Below, piece by piece: positions 3,557 to 23,745 of a stretch of 30,080 nucleotides of DNA (positions are counted from its first letter, which is position 1; the number at the start of each line of letters is the position of its first letter). The translations under genes were made by a program, and so were the position numbers. Source of the stretch: a virus; the IMG/VR virus record IMGVR_UViG_3300030012_000204, positions 1 to 30,080 of that record; one strand, 5' to 3'. The notes under the pieces were generated by a model, which ran no database searches, was not told where the DNA came from, and saw only the letters and a program-made list of their open reading frames with translations.

Positions 3557-4171
3557 TTATATAATACTTAATTGTTGATTTTTTAATTTTTGCTCATATT
3601 CTTTATGATCAGCTCCACCATTCCATATATTTTCTCTCCACCAACTTGTAATTATATACTTTGTGCCTTTTGTTACTTCTTCTCCACTATGTTGCATGTA
3701 TTCATTTGGATGTCCATGTTGTAAATTATTCCAAACTACAGCTTTACAACTTAATGGTTTTATTTCTTTTTTTAGATGAGGAAAGTTAGTAGTACCTCCT
3801 TCAAAATTATCATTTAAATACAGCATAAAAGTGTATGTTCTGTTGCCACTTGACAAACAGTTTTTCTCATAACTATCACCTTTAAAATAATCATGATGTG
3901 ATCTAAAATATTGACCTTGTTCATATCTTTGACCTTGTAGTGATTCACCTTTATGTAGAGGTTGTCCTAAATATTTAGCTATTTTTTTGTGTAATGTTTC
4001 TACAGTAGGATCATTAGCTACAAGATTAGATGTATATGATGTTCTTGCTTGACTATATTGATTCATTTGTTTACCTCCTGCTACAACCATAGACTTATTA
4101 GCATACCTATCTATCATATTCATTAGATACCTAGCTTCTTCTTTTGTAATAAAGTTTTGTATTTCTTTCAT
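3557..4171 (-). CDS. 2OG-Fe(II) oxygenase, prolyl 4-hydroxylase type
   Basis: A 2-oxoglutarate/iron dioxygenase of the P4Hc fold. Using the start at 4171, the iron triad is H92 and D94 in RSHHDYF and H161 in YMQHSGEEV. The 2-oxoglutarate-binding basic residue is K171 in KGTKYIITSWW. The strand TYTFMLYLNDNFEGGTTNF and the segment AVVWNNLQHGHPNE complete the usual pattern. Such enzymes hydroxylate proline or other side chains in proteins and are common in marine phage genomes; the substrate here is unknown. I prefer the ATG at 4171, which overlaps the previous stop as TAATG, over the upstream ATG at 4180 that adds three residues. Its position inside the tail module, straight after the big repeat protein, suggests a tail or host-surface substrate (inference). 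Confidence 0.85.
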   Translation of the reverse strand: MKEIQNFITKEEARYLMNMIDRYANKSMVVAGGKQMNQYSQARTSYTSNLVANDPTVETLHKKIAKYLGQPLHKGESLQGQRYEQGQYFRSHHDYFKGDSYEKNCLSSGNRTYTFMLYLNDNFEGGTTNFPHLKKEIKPLSCKAVVWNNLQHGHPNEYMQHSGEEVTKGTKYIITSWWRENIWNGGADHKEYEQKLKNQQLSII

Positions 4172-7100
4172 TATGGACAATTAGATGTAAATGGACCTGT
4201 TAATGTACCTGCTGTTGCATTCCAAAAGTAATAATTTGATCCTGCATTAGTTGCAAAATATTGATCTGTAGGAAATAGTGTGTTACATGTATCATCTGTA
4301 TATACTTCACTTGCAGATGCTAATGTACTTGCATTTAAATATACAGTTCTTGTAAGACCATCACATATATCTATAGGTGCAGCACCTTTAACCAATGATA
4401 ATGTAAAACATGTTTGTGCAGGTGGTGATGGAGGAGGAGGTGGTACTGGTACTGTAGATTGACAATCTAAACAGTTAGCTCCTGCTGTATTTTCTTGACT
4501 AAATATAGTAAAGTTTTGACTATTTAATTCAGTAGGATTTACACCTTGATGGTTACTATCCCATCTATAACATTCAAAACCTCCAACAGGTTGTATTACC
4601 CACCATGTACTTATAGGTTGATAACTGTATACATCAACTATAAAACCAGTAGGATCATCACAACTTATAAATCTTGCATAATATATACTTGCAGGTGGTT
4701 GCACAGGTGTAGGTGGTACTGATATACAGTTGTTTCCTCCATCTGCACACACAACTCCTACTTGTATACCTGTGTTTATTAATGCAGCTCCTACAACTTG
4801 ATACCTTATTGAGTTTACTGTAACAGTATCATTTGAGTTAAAACTGACATCATTAACTGTTTGTAAAGAAAGATAACCTGTTGTACTATCATCACATTTT
4901 TGTAATGACCAATATTGTGTAGAACCTGTTATTGTAGGACAATTAGTCTGACCTGTATCTGTTACTGTACCTACATTTGCATAACCTCCTCCTGATACCC
5001 CTACTGATACTACTGTATAAGGCATACCACAACTATCTGTTACTCTGTCATTTACACTTAGGCTTATTTGTGAAATACTGTTGCCTGATCTGTAACCTGT
5101 TTGTAAAGTATAACATTGTTTTAATTCATAAAAAGTAGGACATGCTGTTTCTGTACTAGTAACAACTGTACCTACTGATGTTCCACTTGTTGTTGTACCT
5201 AATACTTTATATAATGGACCTGCTGTGCTGCCACTATGCACCATATCACCTACACTTAAACTGATTTGAGTTGTTGTTTGTGCTGTTATATAACTTGTGC
5301 TACCTGTACTACATTGTTGTAATTGGTAATATTGTACAGTTCCACAAGGTGTGCTTGGACATCCTAAAGATCCTAGACTTGTAACTTGACCTATTGCATT
5401 TGCATATGTTGTAGTATCTGTTGTTGTAGCATTTACAGTATAACATTTACCTGTACTATTATCTTGCACTAATGATGCTTGATTAGGATTGCTATTAGCT
5501 GTTAAATTAGGTATATCTGCTGTTGTTGTAGCTGTTCTTATTTGTGTAGCTGTTTGACAATCTCTAAGTAAATAATAAACAGGTAAAACTGTACAAGAAC
5601 AAGAGCTTAATGCATCTAAATCTATAGATCCTGATGTGTTTGTTGTGTTTTGTGCTTCATAACATGTTCCATTATATGTTAATTGTGTGTTATTTAAGTT
5701 GCTACAGTTACTAAAACCATAATGTTGTATAGAACCATCTGTACAACTGTTTAAAGAATAGTAGTATGTAGTACATGATCCAGTTTGCAAACTTGCAATA
5801 TTTATTGTTCCTGTTTGATTTGCACTTGCAGGACTTATAACATATGTTTGATTTTGATATACAACAGTACCACTAAAAGAATTACTAGCATGATAACCAA
5901 AAAGAGTTGTACCACTACAACATGGATTTAATGCATAATAGTTTGTTGTTGTGTTACCACTACATGTTAGTTGTGCAGGACTAGGTGTAGATGCTATTGT
6001 AACACTAGGTACAGAATCTAATGCAGTTGAGTTTTCAATTACATACTTAGTACTTCCTGAATCAAAGACTTGTTGTGTAATAGCATATGTTGGATTCCCT
6101 ACATCTGTTGATGATCTAAAATTTGTACTATTATCACTACATCTCTTTAATGTATAATAATTAGTTACTGGTGTAGTTGGTGTAGAAGGGCATCCTGTTA
6201 ATCCTGTTGCTGTTATAGCTTTTGATGTATATGTGTTAGGCACATTGTTACCTGTAACTTTATATGTGTTTCCTGAGCTATCTTCTACTCTTTGATTGAT
6301 TGCTAAATTTAATGTACCTAATGTTGTAGTAGATTCAAAAGTAGCATTTGGAGCTGCACACTCATATAATGTTAAAACATTTGTTAATGGACCTTCTTGA
6401 CCACCTGATCCCCCAGTCTCAGTTTGTGCAACTGCTGCATCATTTACTGTCTCATTTAACAGCTCTAATTGACTTGAACCTGTTAATAAATCTGTAGTAA
6501 TACTGTTAATCTTGTAATTATTGTCATTTATTCTTACAGTATCTGCAAGAGTAAAGTTAATTACAAACTTTTTTGGTAATCTAGCATTTATTCTTGTTAA
6601 TCTTTTTGCTGAATTGAATACACCTGCAATATAAAATCTATGATATTTTTCAAATAGTGTGTCTGTAAATGCAGATGTAAAATCCCATTCTGATAATTCT
6701 AAATCAAAATGTATTCCTTCTTTGTTTACTGTAGCATCTCTACTAACAAAATTAGAAGGCATCCAGTAATCTGATATATCTGATATGCTAGTTGTTCCTG
6801 TTTTTCCTAATAAGAATCTAAATGGATTAGTTAAATTAACAAACTCACCAATAAATAATACAGGTTTTTTAAAATATGGCTCATTCTTTTCATCTGCCAT
6901 AAACCCCCATTGTATATCTGTATTGATTCCATTAATTCTTTCATATTTTAAATGTGCAAAAGGTGCTGTTACTTCAAACTTCTGATCATTGGAGTTTAAG
7001 TTTCCTGTTTCAACATATTTAGCTGCACCCCATTCTACACCTTGTGATTCTTTATGTTGTTTTGCTAATGTTGCATCTGTATCTTCATACTTAAATTCTA

Positions 7101-9527: not shown

Positions 9528-10042
9528 TATGTTGTTGTAAATTTTAAAAAGTTGTCTATATCTAATTCATACTTGTCTATGAACTCTTTTGGTAGCTTTT
9601 TGTATGCTGCTTGAAAAGCATCTGTAAAAAAGTAAGTTGGCTCTAGACCTTTCATGTATATAGATCTTGCAATTAAAAATGTTAGAGATTGTCTTTTAAC
9701 AAATCTACCTTTATCATCTCTTGTACCTTTTAGTCCTCTTTTGACAACCCACTTATCTAATGATTTTGGAGGTGGCATTTTATTAGTATACTTATATGTA
9801 GGTAATCCTGCTTTTCTTTTACCATACTTTTTCTTCTTACCATCTACACCTGCATCTTGATACTGACCATATCCTGCCATTTCAAAGTCTAACTCAAAAG
9901 ATTTAGGATTCACTTTTACATTACTTTGTAGAGACCTAGAAAGTTTACCTGATGCATTTCTTTTTTTAAGGTTTTGTTTTGCACCTCTAATAACTTCTTT
10001 AGCAAAGTTTTCTAATACTTTTGTAGTCTCTTTATATTTCAT
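9527..10042 (-). CDS. HK97 gp10-like neck/tail-completion protein
   Basis: The product is 171 aa from the start at 10042. A basic helical N-terminus (EVIRGAKQNLKKR) and LSRSLQSNVKV are followed by the segment GYGQYQDAGVDGKKKKYG (positions 58-75), the usual hallmark of HK97 gp10-type proteins (YGxYqDxGV). A conserved C-terminal half has TFLIARSIYMKGLEPTYFF, as in family members with RSI...KG...f. Members of this family sit at the head-tail interface and help complete or attach the tail. The ATG at 10042 overlaps the previous stop as TAATG and is preferred over the ATG at 10048, which would add two residues. The stop overlaps the start of the 326-aa gene. Confidence 0.7.
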   Translation of the reverse strand: MKYKETTKVLENFAKEVIRGAKQNLKKRNASGKLSRSLQSNVKVNPKSFELDFEMAGYGQYQDAGVDGKKKKYGKRKAGLPTYKYTNKMPPPKSLDKWVVKRGLKGTRDDKGRFVKRQSLTFLIARSIYMKGLEPTYFFTDAFQAAYKKLPKEFIDKYELDIDNFLKFTTT

Positions 10043-10515
10043 TAGCAATAATCTGTATCATTAAATATTTCTACTGTAAATGATGTTGCCCATCCTGCTA
10101 GTACATTTTCAAACCTATCAAAAAAAGGTTCACATGTAGCATCACCTACAAGTTGATAACCATCTTGATACATTTGTCCTTTTCTAAGTTTTGTAACAAG
10201 TTTATTAGAAACTGTTAGTTGTGTATTTAAAATGTCATGTGTATTGTTATTACCTAAAAATAGATCATTAACATGCTCTTTACTGCTGTCTATTTGTTCC
10301 ATTGTTAGTATAGTAAAACTAAACTGCATTGTTTTTTCTGCATGTACTACATTCTCTATTATCATATGTGCAAGAGGAAAGATTGTTTGTTTACCTAGAT
10401 CTACATCTGTTATATCTCCAAATGTCATTGTCTTTATACTAGGATTGTTTATTAGTTCATTCTTTATTTCTTCAACTACTAAGTAAAATCCTCTTTGTGC
10501 TTTATCTGCTGCCAT
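10042..10515 (-). CDS. Neck protein, probable tail-terminator-like
   Basis: This 157-aa protein begins MAADKAQRGFYLVVEEIKNE. The middle has FPLAHMIIENVVHAEKTMQF, and the C-terminus is FENVLAGWATSFTVEIFND followed by TDYC. The C-terminal beta-strand with a GW is a pattern I recall in small neck proteins next to gp10-like genes in flavobacterial phages. Tail terminators are of this size and lie in this position. No motif proves the assignment. Its ATG lies inside the last codons of the -1-frame extension of the upstream gene, which ends at 10502, so the two are translationally linked only if frameshifting occurs. Confidence 0.5.
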   Translation of the reverse strand: MAADKAQRGFYLVVEEIKNELINNPSIKTMTFGDITDVDLGKQTIFPLAHMIIENVVHAEKTMQFSFTILTMEQIDSSKEHVNDLFLGNNNTHDILNTQLTVSNKLVTKLRKGQMYQDGYQLVGDATCEPFFDRFENVLAGWATSFTVEIFNDTDYC

Positions 10516-11247
10516 GCTTTCTTTTTAATCTTTGATTTTCTATTGTTTGTTTTTCATTTACAAATTCTAAATACATCAATATTTTGTGTAATTTCTGTTC
10601 TGAGATATGTTCAAATCTTGTAACATCTCCTTGAGCTGCTTGGTAAAATGATGTATACCAACCCCACTTTCTATTAAACCCTCCTTCTGATGTGTATGAT
10701 CCTTCAGAACTCCCTTCTGCAAATAATCCATCATAACTATTGATAACTCTTTGCCTAAATTCATTAAAAAAAAAACAGCACCTAATGCATATCCTAGTGG
10801 CATCTCTTTCATAGTATCATCAGTAATAGCAGTATATTCTTTAATATTATATCTGCCTCTTACACTAATGTCTACTGGTCTATACAATACTTGCATAGCT
10901 TTATGCATTTCTTGCCAGTCTCCTAAGTATGTATCTAAGTCTACAAATTCACCAAAACTAATTTCATCTAAGTTTGGTATAAATCCATAGTTCACTCCAT
11001 TCATGTGAAACTGTCTTTTTAATTTCTGATCTTGATCAAACATAAGACCTAGATCTGTTACAATCTCCTGCACATCTCTCCACCTCATTTTCATGACATA
11101 ATCTAATCTAGTGTTACAAAAGATCTCTACCATTTTTTGTGCAATAAAGGTTTGATCCTCATTGTCCTTCTCCATTTTTAAGTATTTCTGATACTGCCCT
11201 AATGTTATTTCTGTTAGGTTCTCAGGTATCTTTAGTGTTAGTTCCAT
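10502..11247 (-). CDS. -1 frameshift fusion product of the chaperone-like gene (lambda GT-like role), about 248 aa
   Basis: This is the alternative product of the same gene. If the ribosome slips back one base on T TTT TTA (10771-10765), residue 161 is followed by 87 codons read from 10765 to the TAA at 10502. This extension looks like authentic protein: NEFRQRVINSYDGLFAEG, then GGFNRKWGWYTSFYQ, AAQGDVTRFEHISEQ and LHKILMYLEFVNEKQ. The W-x-W-Y ... GD-x-T-x-F ... YLxFxxEK pattern is one I recall in tail-associated proteins of marine phages. The extension has no ATG before its last third, so frameshifting (or an extra T in the real genome) is the only evident way to translate it. The stop lies just inside the next gene. 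Confidence 0.6.
10576..11247 (-). CDS. Probable tail-assembly chaperone, zero-frame product (lambda G-like role)
   Basis: The zero-frame product is 223 aa. The first 160 residues include LTEITLGQYQKYLKMEK, QKMVEIFCNTRLDYVMKM and the conserved-looking YGFIPNLDEISFGEFVDLD (about 87-105), then MHKAMQVLYRPV. At codon 161 the frame crosses a run of ten T on the coding strand that contains the heptamer T TTT TTA. The zero frame then continues for 62 more residues (LMNLGKELSIVMMDYL ... FTKQLKEMLQDLN). I recall proteins of this size and pattern among uncultured marine phages without a proven function. The chaperone call rests on size, neck/tail context and the frameshift site, which is the signature of tail-assembly chaperones in many siphoviruses. 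The tape measure lies about 7 kb downstream rather than next door, which weakens the call. Confidence 0.5.
   Translation of the reverse strand: MELTLKIPENLTEITLGQYQKYLKMEKDNEDQTFIAQKMVEIFCNTRLDYVMKMRWRDVQEIVTDLGLMFDQDQKLKRQFHMNGVNYGFIPNLDEISFGEFVDLDTYLGDWQEMHKAMQVLYRPVDISVRGRYNIKEYTAITDDTMKEMPLGYALGAVFFLMNLGKELSIVMMDYLQKGVLKDHTHQKEGLIESGVGIHHFTKQLKEMLQDLNISQNRNYTKY
10765..10771 (-). promoter_or_regulatory. -1 programmed ribosomal frameshift slippery heptamer (T TTT TTA)
   Basis: On the coding (minus) strand the zero-frame codons read GTT TTT TTT TTA ATG, so the heptamer T TTT TTA sits exactly in the X XXY YYZ register of canonical -1 slippery sites. It forms the end of a ten-T run at 10775-10766. 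Both frames downstream are open and protein-like. I did not find an obvious strong stem-loop just downstream, and a long homopolymer is also the commonest place for an assembly error. Confidence 0.6.
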
Positions 11248-11339
11248 ATCTATATAATAATAAAATAGATAAGTTTTAAAAAAAAGTTATCAAAATATTT
11301 GGTGATATTATAATAATGTATTATATTTATACTATAAAT
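11248..11339. promoter_or_regulatory. Divergent intergenic region, probable promoters for both directions
   Basis: This 92-bp AT-rich gap separates the leftward tail/neck genes (start 11247) from the rightward island (start 11340). It must supply promoters for the island and, unless TerL transcription reads through the island's antisense strand, for the tail genes as well. An inverted repeat, TATCA ... TGATA, at 11288-11307 with 10 bases between the arms surrounds AAATATTT and could be an operator. I could not find a clean Bacteroidota -7 element (TAnnTTTG); the nearest matches lack one position. Confidence 0.35.
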
Positions 11340-11555
11340 ATGAAAAACACTATTATGAACAATTTAGAAAATTACTGGAATCATGAGTACAGGCACTATC
11401 TTAGAGATGCTAGACCTCATGAAAAAGATAGAATTAAAAATCTATTTATTAAAAACAACTTAGAGTTAGATGGAGAATCTGATGCACACTTAGACATCAT
11501 TAAAAAGGTTTTACCATTCTTTTTTAACCTTCACAAATACAAAAACTTTATATAA
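11340..11555 (+). CDS. 71-aa hypothetical protein, first gene of plus-strand island
   Basis: The ORF is open from 11316, but I prefer the ATG at 11340 (MKNTIMNNLENYWNHEY), because the next gene starts with the same MKNT and the upstream nine codons look like promoter DNA. The protein is small and rich in charged and aromatic residues, with HYLRDARPHEKDRIKNLF, then DAHLDIIKKVLPFFFNLHK near the end. There is no signal peptide, and the PFFF stretch is too short to span a membrane. I do not recognise the family. Its stop overlaps the next ATG (TAATG), so the two genes are coupled. It is transcribed against all the surrounding genes. Confidence 0.6.
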   Translation: MKNTIMNNLENYWNHEYRHYLRDARPHEKDRIKNLFIKNNLELDGESDAHLDIIKKVLPFFFNLHKYKNFI

Positions 11556-11905
11556 TGAAAAACACAAAATTTAGTATACAAACAAACATTAAAAAATCTA
11601 ATGATTATTGGTTTATCACTTTAGTGTGCCATCATCCTGATTCATCATGGAAGAAAAACACAGATAGTAAGTTTAAAATCAAATGTCCTTTTGAAGAAAC
11701 AATAGACATGAACATAGATGACATGAATATCTTTAAGTCTTTTTGCAAAGATTTAGGAGTACCATCTTGGCATGTAATTGAATTCATGGAAAAATGTATA
11801 GATATTGCTGTAGATGAATGGCAAGATATAAATATATCTAATGAATCTTTTAAATGGTTACAAATGCCTGAAACTGTAGAATTACTAAAAAGACAAACTA
11901 TATAA
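11555..11905 (+). CDS. 116-aa hypothetical protein, plus-strand island
   Basis: The gene starts at 11555 in a TAATG overlap. It has the sequence NDYWFITLVCHHPDSSWKK near the N-terminus, then KIKCPFEETIDMNIDDMNIF, an acidic centre, and WHVIEFMEKCIDIAVDEWQ towards the C-terminus. It is a soluble, acidic protein with four cysteines and several Trp. I do not recognise it, and no nuclease, methyltransferase or helix-turn-helix motif stands out. Its placement in a separately transcribed cassette with a membrane micro-protein suggests an accessory role such as host takeover or anti-defence, but that is inference from context only. Confidence 0.65.
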   Translation: MKNTKFSIQTNIKKSNDYWFITLVCHHPDSSWKKNTDSKFKIKCPFEETIDMNIDDMNIFKSFCKDLGVPSWHVIEFMEKCIDIAVDEWQDINISNESFKWLQMPETVELLKRQTI

Positions 11906-19689: not shown

Positions 19690-19730
19690 AAAAAAAAAGA
19701 GAGACTTGCTATCACCTAAATCTCTCTCTT
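19690..19730 (-). terminator. Intrinsic terminator (or attenuator) upstream of ninG
   Basis: On the minus strand, AAGAGAGA (19730-19723) pairs with TCTCTCTT (19704-19697) around an 18-nt loop, and the T run extends from 19698 to 19690. This lies between the stop of the DUF3846-like gene (19764) and ninG (19677). A 12-codon ORF (MMPMKHRIHTCD) starts at the overlap with the preceding stop and ends at the base of the stem, which is where a leader peptide would be in an attenuator. The stem is moderately stable, and the long loop lowers confidence. Confidence 0.6.
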
Positions 19731-21375: not shown

Positions 21376-22227
21376 TTAACATGAAGGACATGCTCTTGAT
21401 GTTGTAACTACTATATCACTATAATTTGATGTATAATATCTAATATAAATATATCTAGTACTATTACATTGACTAAAATCATAACATGTACCTCTTAAAC
21501 TAGCACCATATTTATATAATGGTGGACCTTGTGGTTGATAAGTACCAAATGTATTTTTACACCCTGGGTATGTTGAGTTGTTTGTAGCATGTTGAAATGC
21601 ACTAGTACTATTATTTCCATAAACATCAATAATAGTTGTTGTTTGTGAGTTAGTCCATTGTATAGGACTAAAACCTCCATTAAAATTAAAGTTTGGACAG
21701 TAGTTTGCACTTGACCAATCACCACTTCTAGTCTCTACTCTACCTGTAACTGGTATTAATGGTGGTGGAGATGTAGTAGAACCTAAACTAAATTGTGTTT
21801 CACCTGCATCATTTTTTGCATAAATCCAACAATAATAAGTTGTGTTAGCAGACATACCACTAACATTAAAATATCTCCATGAGTGCATCCCCCAACTACT
21901 ATGCTGATTGTATTTTGTAGCACTACCAATACTACTAGATGTACCAACATATACACCACACTCTGTAATATCACACCCACCATTACCTCTCATAATAGCT
22001 TGTGCTGATAAATTACCTGATGTATTAATACTAAAACTTTGACTACCTAGTTGTGTAGGTGCTGTACATGCTTGATAACCATAAAACTCACTCATGTTAT
22101 CAGGATCTGTAAATCCTGCTTCATTACTTAAAGTTCCAAGAGATACATTATTATCTGTATCATTCCCATTAACTTCTTGATTGATGTCAGCTCTAAGTCT
22201 AAGTTGTCCTGATGATGGTACTGCCAT
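21376..22227 (-). CDS. Surface/fibre protein, copy 2 of duplicated family
   Basis: The product is 283 aa. The first 50 residues (MAVPSSGQLRLRADINQEVN, then NVSLGTLSNEAGFTDPDNMS and EFYGY) are nearly identical in layout to the 337-aa protein encoded at 22732-23745. The middle (GSQSFSINTSGNLSAQAI ... GMSANTTYYCWIYAKNDAGE) has a fibronectin type III-like ending, with the sequence L-x-A-N-TTYYcW. The C-terminal 110 residues are unlike the other copy and end in IVVTTSRACPSC. The likely role is a tail or capsid decoration that contacts the host or sugars. The two copies share their N-termini and have diverged distally, which fits attachment by the N-terminus and receptor contact by the rest. The endolysin gene follows. 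Confidence 0.6.
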   Translation of the reverse strand: MAVPSSGQLRLRADINQEVNGNDTDNNVSLGTLSNEAGFTDPDNMSEFYGYQACTAPTQLGSQSFSINTSGNLSAQAIMRGNGGCDITECGVYVGTSSSIGSATKYNQHSSWGMHSWRYFNVSGMSANTTYYCWIYAKNDAGETQFSLGSTTSPPPLIPVTGRVETRSGDWSSANYCPNFNFNGGFSPIQWTNSQTTTIIDVYGNNSTSAFQHATNNSTYPGCKNTFGTYQPQGPPLYKYGASLRGTCYDFSQCNSTRYIYIRYYTSNYSDIVVTTSRACPSC

Positions 22228-22619: not shown

Positions 22620-22718
22620 TTACATTTTTATTTTTTTTAACCAATTATTCCAAGTCTCTACAACTTTATTGTTAAAGGCTTGTATTTTGTTTGCTAAATA
22701 TTTTAATATTCTTACCAT
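22620..22718 (-). CDS. 32-aa amphipathic micro-protein
   Basis: The ORF lies in the 114-bp gap between the 337-aa and 128-aa genes. It begins MVRILKYLANKIQAFNNKVV and ends ETWNNWLKKIKM, giving a lysine-rich amphipathic helix, and the next ATG (22617) follows its stop with a 2-nt gap. It is too short to judge by composition alone. Charge and Trp content suggest membrane-surface or nucleic-acid binding. It may also be only a coupling peptide. Confidence 0.4.
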   Translation of the reverse strand: MVRILKYLANKIQAFNNKVVETWNNWLKKIKM

Positions 22719-22731
22719 TTTTTTTTAATTT

Positions 22732-23745
22732 TTAGACATTATATGTCATTTGAATTTCATATCTTATTTGTGATGAACCACCACCTGATGATACTTGCAT
22801 TATATTTGTGTTGTAATTCATATTACTTGACCAACCATATCTTGCATTTGAACCACCTGCATCTTGTGTAACTACAGTACCAGTTGCACCACCATTGAAA
22901 TGTGATGAACCACTTATACTAGATGTACCTGACCTAGTTTCTGCTCTAGCCAACATACTTTGACCTAGATATGAAGGATATGGTGTATTATTATCTCTTA
23001 ATCTACAATAACCTATTGTTCTATTATTAGTTGCTGTACCTCCACTTAAATATCCTGCACTCCAATTACTTGAATTACCCCATCCACTCTGTACACTCCC
23101 TGGGTTACCTGTTGATAAATATTTACTTGCTTGTGCTAAAGTTGTCCAACCATAATAATAATGATTATATTGATTGTATACAGTTGCATATGAATTGACA
23201 TTAGGTGGAAATATCTCAGCATAAGCACCTTGTGCAGCTCCTGAATATGTTGTATAAGTATATGCAGCTCCAGTAGCTTGTGTTTTTACAGATGAATATG
23301 TTGCAGTAAACCTTGCAGGTGATTGTGAATCTCTAATACCTGCCCACATATAGTATGTAGTACTTGCTGATAAACTAGTAAAATCTCTGTTAAAATTAAA
23401 ACTAGTAGATGTTGTGTTTCCTTCACTATACCATGTGTTACTAGTCATTGTAGCACTTGTGCCAAAGTAAAAACCTCTTTCTACTGCACCACCACTTGGA
23501 TTACTAAAAGTAGGACTTGTAACTCTCATACTTACATCATATACATTAGATGTAGTTGGTGAACCACTAACTGTTGGTTGCTCATAACTAACATAGCCAT
23601 AAAATTCTGACATTTCATCTGGTTCAGTAAATTCTGCTGAATTAGAAAGTGTACCTAATGATACATTATCTCCAGTAGCTGAACCATCAACCTCTAAAGC
23701 TATGTCTGCTCTTAACTTTAATTCTCCTGAACTTGGTACTGCCAT
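22732..23745 (-). CDS. Surface/fibre protein, copy 1 of duplicated family
   Basis: The product is 337 aa. It shares its N-terminal 50 residues with the 283-aa protein (MAVPSSGELKLRADIALEVD, then NVSLGTLSNSAEFTEPDEMS and EFYGY). The middle has fibronectin type III-like features (AVERGFYFGTSATM ... SLSASTTYYMWAGIRDSQSP). The C-terminal half is a Ser/Gly/Asn/Tyr-rich region (NQYNHYYYGWTTLAQASKYL, then GWGNSSNWSAGYLSGG) typical of phage adhesins. No enzymatic motif is visible. It is likely a virion-surface or tail-tip decoration. It is separated from the 150-aa partner by a single base. Confidence 0.6.
   Translation of the reverse strand: MAVPSSGELKLRADIALEVDGSATGDNVSLGTLSNSAEFTEPDEMSEFYGYVSYEQPTVSGSPTTSNVYDVSMRVTSPTFSNPSGGAVERGFYFGTSATMTSNTWYSEGNTTSTSFNFNRDFTSLSASTTYYMWAGIRDSQSPARFTATYSSVKTQATGAAYTYTTYSGAAQGAYAEIFPPNVNSYATVYNQYNHYYYGWTTLAQASKYLSTGNPGSVQSGWGNSSNWSAGYLSGGTATNNRTIGYCRLRDNNTPYPSYLGQSMLARAETRSGTSSISGSSHFNGGATGTVVTQDAGGSNARYGWSSNMNYNTNIMQVSSGGGSSQIRYEIQMTYNV

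Follow-up and report, generated by a model that had tools for sequence, protein, structure and literature searches.

The window analysed here is the whole 30,080-base stretch of virus record IMGVR_UViG_3300030012_000204, in which one gene on the minus strand carries a run of ten T's (T10; 10766-10775), the candidate slip site. The zero frame reads GTT TTT TTT TTA at positions 10776-10765, with the run itself at 10775-10766. The zero-frame ORF (10576-11247, minus strand, 223 amino acids) continues for 62 codons beyond the run, up to a TGA stop at 10578-10576. A -1 frame extension on the same strand (10502-10768, 88 codons plus stop), predicted to encode the folded helical C-terminal domain of a fused protein, runs for 87 codons past the F codon at 10768-10766 and ends with TAA at 10504-10502. 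Both extents, 62 codons to 10576 and 87 codons to 10502, had been claimed in an earlier note on this DNA and were confirmed on the minus strand. The two frames share a stretch of about 190 nt (10576-10765, minus strand). There is a 14-nt overlap between the -1 stop and the start of the next gene, phrog_30964 (10042-10515, minus strand), and translation of the -1 frame may therefore be coupled to that of phrog_30964. Other nine-base A/T runs occur in the window at 1719-1727, 19690-19698, and 22718-22726, at or near gene ends.

The gene order is terminase large subunit, frame-switch gene, phrog_30964, and phrog_29822, the last being weakly like a neck protein, and it is the same in a Nonlabens phage and in two bacterial isolate genomes (see below). 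Two small ORFs on the opposite strand lie between the terminase and frame-switch genes (11316-11905). Five genes separate the frame-switch gene from a tape-measure-like gene, and a 2OG-Fe(II) oxygenase-like gene (3557-4180) is found between the latter and a large tail-tip-like gene. We then searched for the identity of the frame-switch gene. No named family came out as significant in Pfam, NCBIfam, or PHROGs, the weak matches being a tail protein family, phrog_166 (E 0.0036), and Phage_TAC_7 (E 0.2); hhalign returned probabilities of 0.3 percent with lambda G and 0.1 percent with P2 E, and sequence and fold searches of the PDB gave no convincing match. The earlier note had taken the product for a tail-assembly chaperone. 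Neither gene order nor the searches bore this identity out: the gene directly follows the terminase instead of preceding the tape-measure-like gene, and none of its similarities to known chaperones reached significance. In the lambda-type cassette, by contrast, the corresponding gene is located directly upstream of the tape-measure gene, and because the gene studied here lies elsewhere, we did not file it with G/GT despite its G/GT-like layout. Its position in the genome suggests a putative function in assembly.

To define how widely the arrangement is shared, we collected relatives by tblastn-confirmed searches (35 loci with the zero-frame product and 78 with the -1 part), and four further scans, distant, upstream-only, or with a shared profile, enlarged the set. 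In the 78 loci found with the -1 part, the run, an open zero frame (56 to 80 codons), and an open -1 frame (78 to 92 codons) were present down to 35% identity, with the single exception of a T11 contig. Profile searches brought the family to at least 574 to 588 confirmed loci. The 271 distinct relatives used below were retrieved with one of two queries only, the zero-frame part upstream of the run or the -1 part, and some of the loci with the former alone. The run is T9 in 177 of them, T10 in 91, and T8, T11, and T12 in one each, which gives nine or ten T's in 268 of 271 and nine or more in 270; the sole T12 is L072 and the sole T8 is L357. Past the start of the run the zero frame stays open for at least 49 codons in nearly all the relatives (49 to 90; 27 in P12024S), the -1 frame for 79 to 95 codons in 270 of 271, and the third frame is shut within 10 codons in all except the naturally fused contig. 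Across this large family, whose members are phages of marine flavobacteria, a single gene retains nine or ten T's in a row. Runs of A or T of this length (at least nine) are rare in neighbouring coding sequence, with 3 in 297 kb.

In BLAST searches against cultured phages, matches were found only in the Nonlabens phages P12024S and P12024L, and the -1 part alone had no match. Both phages have T9 and a zero-frame tail of about 26 codons, while the isolate genomes of Flagellimonas onchidii and Galbibacter pacificus have T9 and tails of 71 and 77 codons, respectively. In both phages the -1 tail is annotated as a separate small gene; for P12024S (positions 5001-5695) public records list the two frames as P12024S_38 and P12024S_39, and PHROGs repeats the split as phrog_32199 and phrog_38404. 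Since one gene has been divided into two unknown families, the annotation of this large group is systematically wrong. The first 60 codons of the -1 part are free of ATG in 243 of 270 relatives, which makes an independent -1 gene unlikely, as the earlier note had argued from the window.

The earlier note had also named a competing reading, in which one T is missing from the run because of a sequencing or assembly error and the gene is a single frame. One contig (L045, also L030 and L211) indeed has T11 near 456-466 and a naturally fused frame; this may be a real variant or an error, and its close relatives L046 and L051 have T10. On the other hand, nine or ten T's in the zero-frame register recur in 268 of the 271 distinct sequences, T9 and T10 appear in the same register across hundreds of assemblies, and the zero frame is itself under selection (see below). 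The presence of the run in P12024S, P12024L, F. onchidii, and G. pacificus excludes the missing T, and an error is an extremely improbable account of the locus. Likewise, the run could in principle be a hypermutable on/off switch acting at the DNA level, and both the homopolymer and the T11 contig are of the kind that phase variation would produce. Such a switch would often show both states, however, whereas the fused state was found in 1 of 271 relatives, and it would not be expected to place the zero-frame tail under selection; we therefore hold phase variation to be very improbable. The run recurs among the 271 relatives together with both frames, rather than one frame alone being conserved and the slippery heptamer being lost, and a programmed switch to the -1 frame, as originally proposed, is best in keeping with this conservation.

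The choice of codons within the run was then analysed. Without exception (271 of 271 relatives), both Phe codons of the run are TTT, while TTC makes up 21% of the Phe codons in the same genes; the chance of finding no TTC at one of these two codons across 95 clusters is about 1.6e-10. A third Phe codon, where present, depends on what precedes the run. With two T's supplied by the preceding codon it is TTC in 17 sequences (8 clusters) and TTT in 2, one of which is the fused T11 contig, and with no T supplied it is always TTT (13 sequences, 7 clusters). The contrast is significant at the cluster level (Fisher p 0.002), as is the excess of TTC, used in 8 of 10 clusters where the background is 21% (p 1e-4). 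In other words, TTC is used where TTT would take the run beyond ten, and TTT where TTC would leave eight or fewer, so the length of the run is held both from below and from above. The family therefore conserves an A/T homopolymer of about nine or more, kept at the DNA level beyond the need of coding, though this is partly confounded with a requirement for U7. The codon following the two TTT codons varies (TTA, TTG, TTC, TAY, or TGG). The earlier note had singled out U UUU UUA as the signal. A heptamer of the X XXY YYZ type (T TTT TTN, correctly phased with the zero frame) does occur in the window and the whole family, but the specific U UUU UUA is not supported as the signal, given the variable following codon, the weakness of UUA in Escherichia coli, and the conservation of T9-T10 instead.

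We asked whether both frames are under selection in the overlap. In the window's clade, the part read in the zero frame only changes at rates of 0.11, 0.08, and 0.34 at codon positions 1, 2, and 3, whereas in the overlap the rates are 0.12, 0.15, and 0.14, slow at all three; both frames are open past the run in 75 of the 75 relatives used here. When the -1 protein was recoded at random with synonymous codons, the zero frame remained open as far as is observed in a mean of 3.8% of trials. The double opening is thus not a product of chance. Synonymous change in the first 14 codons of the -1 frame is 0.32 to 0.47 of the control, and 0.1 in the window's clade. Finally, the identity of the zero-frame protein exceeds that expected from -1 frame selection by itself, both in the first block of the overlap (0.49 versus 0.37) and in the last (0.51 versus 0.39). 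These statistics come from sequences that are related to one another. Selection of both frames over the overlap of about 190 nt is thus well supported, in agreement with the dual coding and its unusual length suggested before; against 62 codons for the zero-frame tail here, lambda G has 5 and P2 E has 6.

The zero-frame tail could still be a passenger, kept open as a by-product of the -1 codons while the fused protein is the functional one. Midway through the overlap, the conservation of the zero frame is fully accounted for by the conserved -1 sequence FNRKWGWY, so zero-frame selection is seen in the first and last parts and not there; the tail of the Nonlabens phages has only 26 codons, and the part read in the -1 frame only is also at 0.6 to 0.8 of the control for synonymous change, which makes this control imperfect. 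The predicted structures point the same way. We used the naturally fused contig to predict the -1 fusion from an unchanged sequence and obtained a pLDDT of 91.1 and a pTM of 0.84, while in the zero-frame product, which has the same N-terminal part, the tail is predicted with a pLDDT of 28 to 43, a comparison of confidence that is rough since the two structure alignments differ in depth. Against a passenger tail stand the two blocks of excess identity, the low recoding openness, and the reduced synonymous change in the first 14 codons, and taken together these make it unlikely. Among viral predictions, the matches to the fold of the fused protein include unnamed proteins of 243 to 267 residues at the full fused length (TM about 0.7 to 0.8), which suggests that other phages may make the fused form from a single frame.

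How would the switch be made? Bacterial RNA polymerase slips efficiently at nine A's or T's, its RNA-DNA hybrid being 9 to 10 bp (PMC5009743). In the mechanism we propose, the host RNA polymerase would slip on T9-T10 and add one U to a part of the mRNAs. The product of unslipped mRNA would have about 220 residues and end in the zero-frame tail; that of mRNA carrying the additional U would have about 245, of which the last 85 or so, from the -1 frame, would form the folded helical domain. Other slips would lead into the third frame, where a stop follows within ten codons. Both products would then act together in particle assembly at a set ratio. That the gene of this phage head-tail module carries a programmed frame switch made by RNA polymerase slippage is, in our judgement, the probable reading, albeit by a modest measure. 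We infer that the switch takes place in the cell mostly through the polymerase rather than the ribosome, with its products acting jointly in assembly.

The alternative is ribosomal -1 frameshifting, with tandem tRNA slippage on U UUU UUU (or U UUU UUN) within the run producing the fused protein. The in-frame T TTT TTN found in the window and throughout the family would allow it, U UUU UUU can slip ribosomally in E. coli, and U_UU.U_UU.Y is among the better motifs there (PMC4066793); moreover, a prediction places the slip for SPP1 17.5* on UUUUUUC (PMC6316719), and the site behind P2 E' is rich in T. In E. coli a UUC ending makes a good site and a UUA or UUG ending a poor one (PMC4066793), yet the second Phe codon is TTC in 0 of 271 relatives, although U_UU.U_UU.C would work, and UUA and UUG endings are common. 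Nor would a cap at T10 be expected. Stimulators were looked for and none was found: among pseudoknot-free folds of the region downstream no conserved structure emerged (mean z about 0; 0 consensus pairs), a Shine-Dalgarno-like sequence is present in only 19 of 271 relatives and hence not conserved, and Rfam gave nothing at a family's gathering score over 10300-11400. Ribosomal frameshifting is accordingly a possibility of some weight but a doubtful one.

Transcriptional slippage is preferred on account of the invariable TTT at the second Phe codon, the pattern at the third, the lack of detected stimulators, and the known slippage of the polymerase at nine T's. Several points speak against it. 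Almost all runs include U UUU UUU in frame, and if U7 were strictly required the lower bound would be explained almost as well; since such a requirement would mimic that bound, the polymerase reading stays inferential. Avoiding replication errors could be what sets the upper bound, the T's flanking the run are confounded with amino-acid constraint on the codon before it and with -1 frame constraint on the codon after it, and relative L357 has T8. Conservation gives the frame switch good support; as to its mechanism, slippage of the polymerase is the better of the two readings, though an unproven one, and both kinds of slippage may contribute.

Lambda G/GT, P2 E/E+E', and SPP1 17.5/17.5* likewise have a shared N terminus and two C termini produced by a late -1 switch, expression being predicted in the present case, and the sites of P2 and SPP1 are T-rich, as here. 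The zero-frame tail of lambda or P2 (measured the same way) is only a few codons, whereas here it is at least 49 and dual coding; a short tail is customary in lambda-type cassettes but no strict part of their definition. The gene also differs from the chaperones of the three phages in its T9-T10 run without detectable stimulators, its place next to the terminase, and the lack of detectable homology. RNA polymerase slips at homopolymer runs in Thermus dnaX (nine T's) and in Shigella spa13 and mxiE, giving two products in substantial ratio (PMC5009743), but these are cellular or plasmid genes, while the present genes form a phage family whose long overlap is selected in both frames. In potyvirus P3N-PIPO (PMC5009743; PMC4552492), polymerase slippage at a short run likewise leads to an overlapping-frame fusion with the zero frame also coding; that system differs in having an RNA virus replicase, a different motif, and an unrelated protein. 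We found no report of transcriptional slippage in phage tail or assembly genes in the literature searched, most subscription journals lying outside its coverage.

Textbooks illustrate ribosomal -1 frameshifting with phage assembly genes, whose two products are as a rule cleanly separated. Here a counted T run and a long two-frame stretch are kept in more than 570 environmental loci, in cultured Nonlabens phages, and in flavobacterial isolate sequences. Whether this family of double-stranded DNA phages sets the ratio between two versions of an assembly protein by RNA polymerase slippage at a counted T9-T10 run rather than by ribosomal frameshifting, with both C termini encoded and selected in the same 190 nt or so, is in our estimate evenly balanced. 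Should the polymerase prove responsible, phages would possess, besides frameshifting by the ribosome, another means of fixing the proportion of their assembly proteins, and this means would not depend on RNA structure. The cultured phages and isolates bearing the run make these questions directly testable. Elsewhere in the window, two proteins (21376-22227 and 22732-23745) share an N-terminal part that is 42% identical, and each is followed by a short gene, an arrangement resembling a duplicated fibre-like module.
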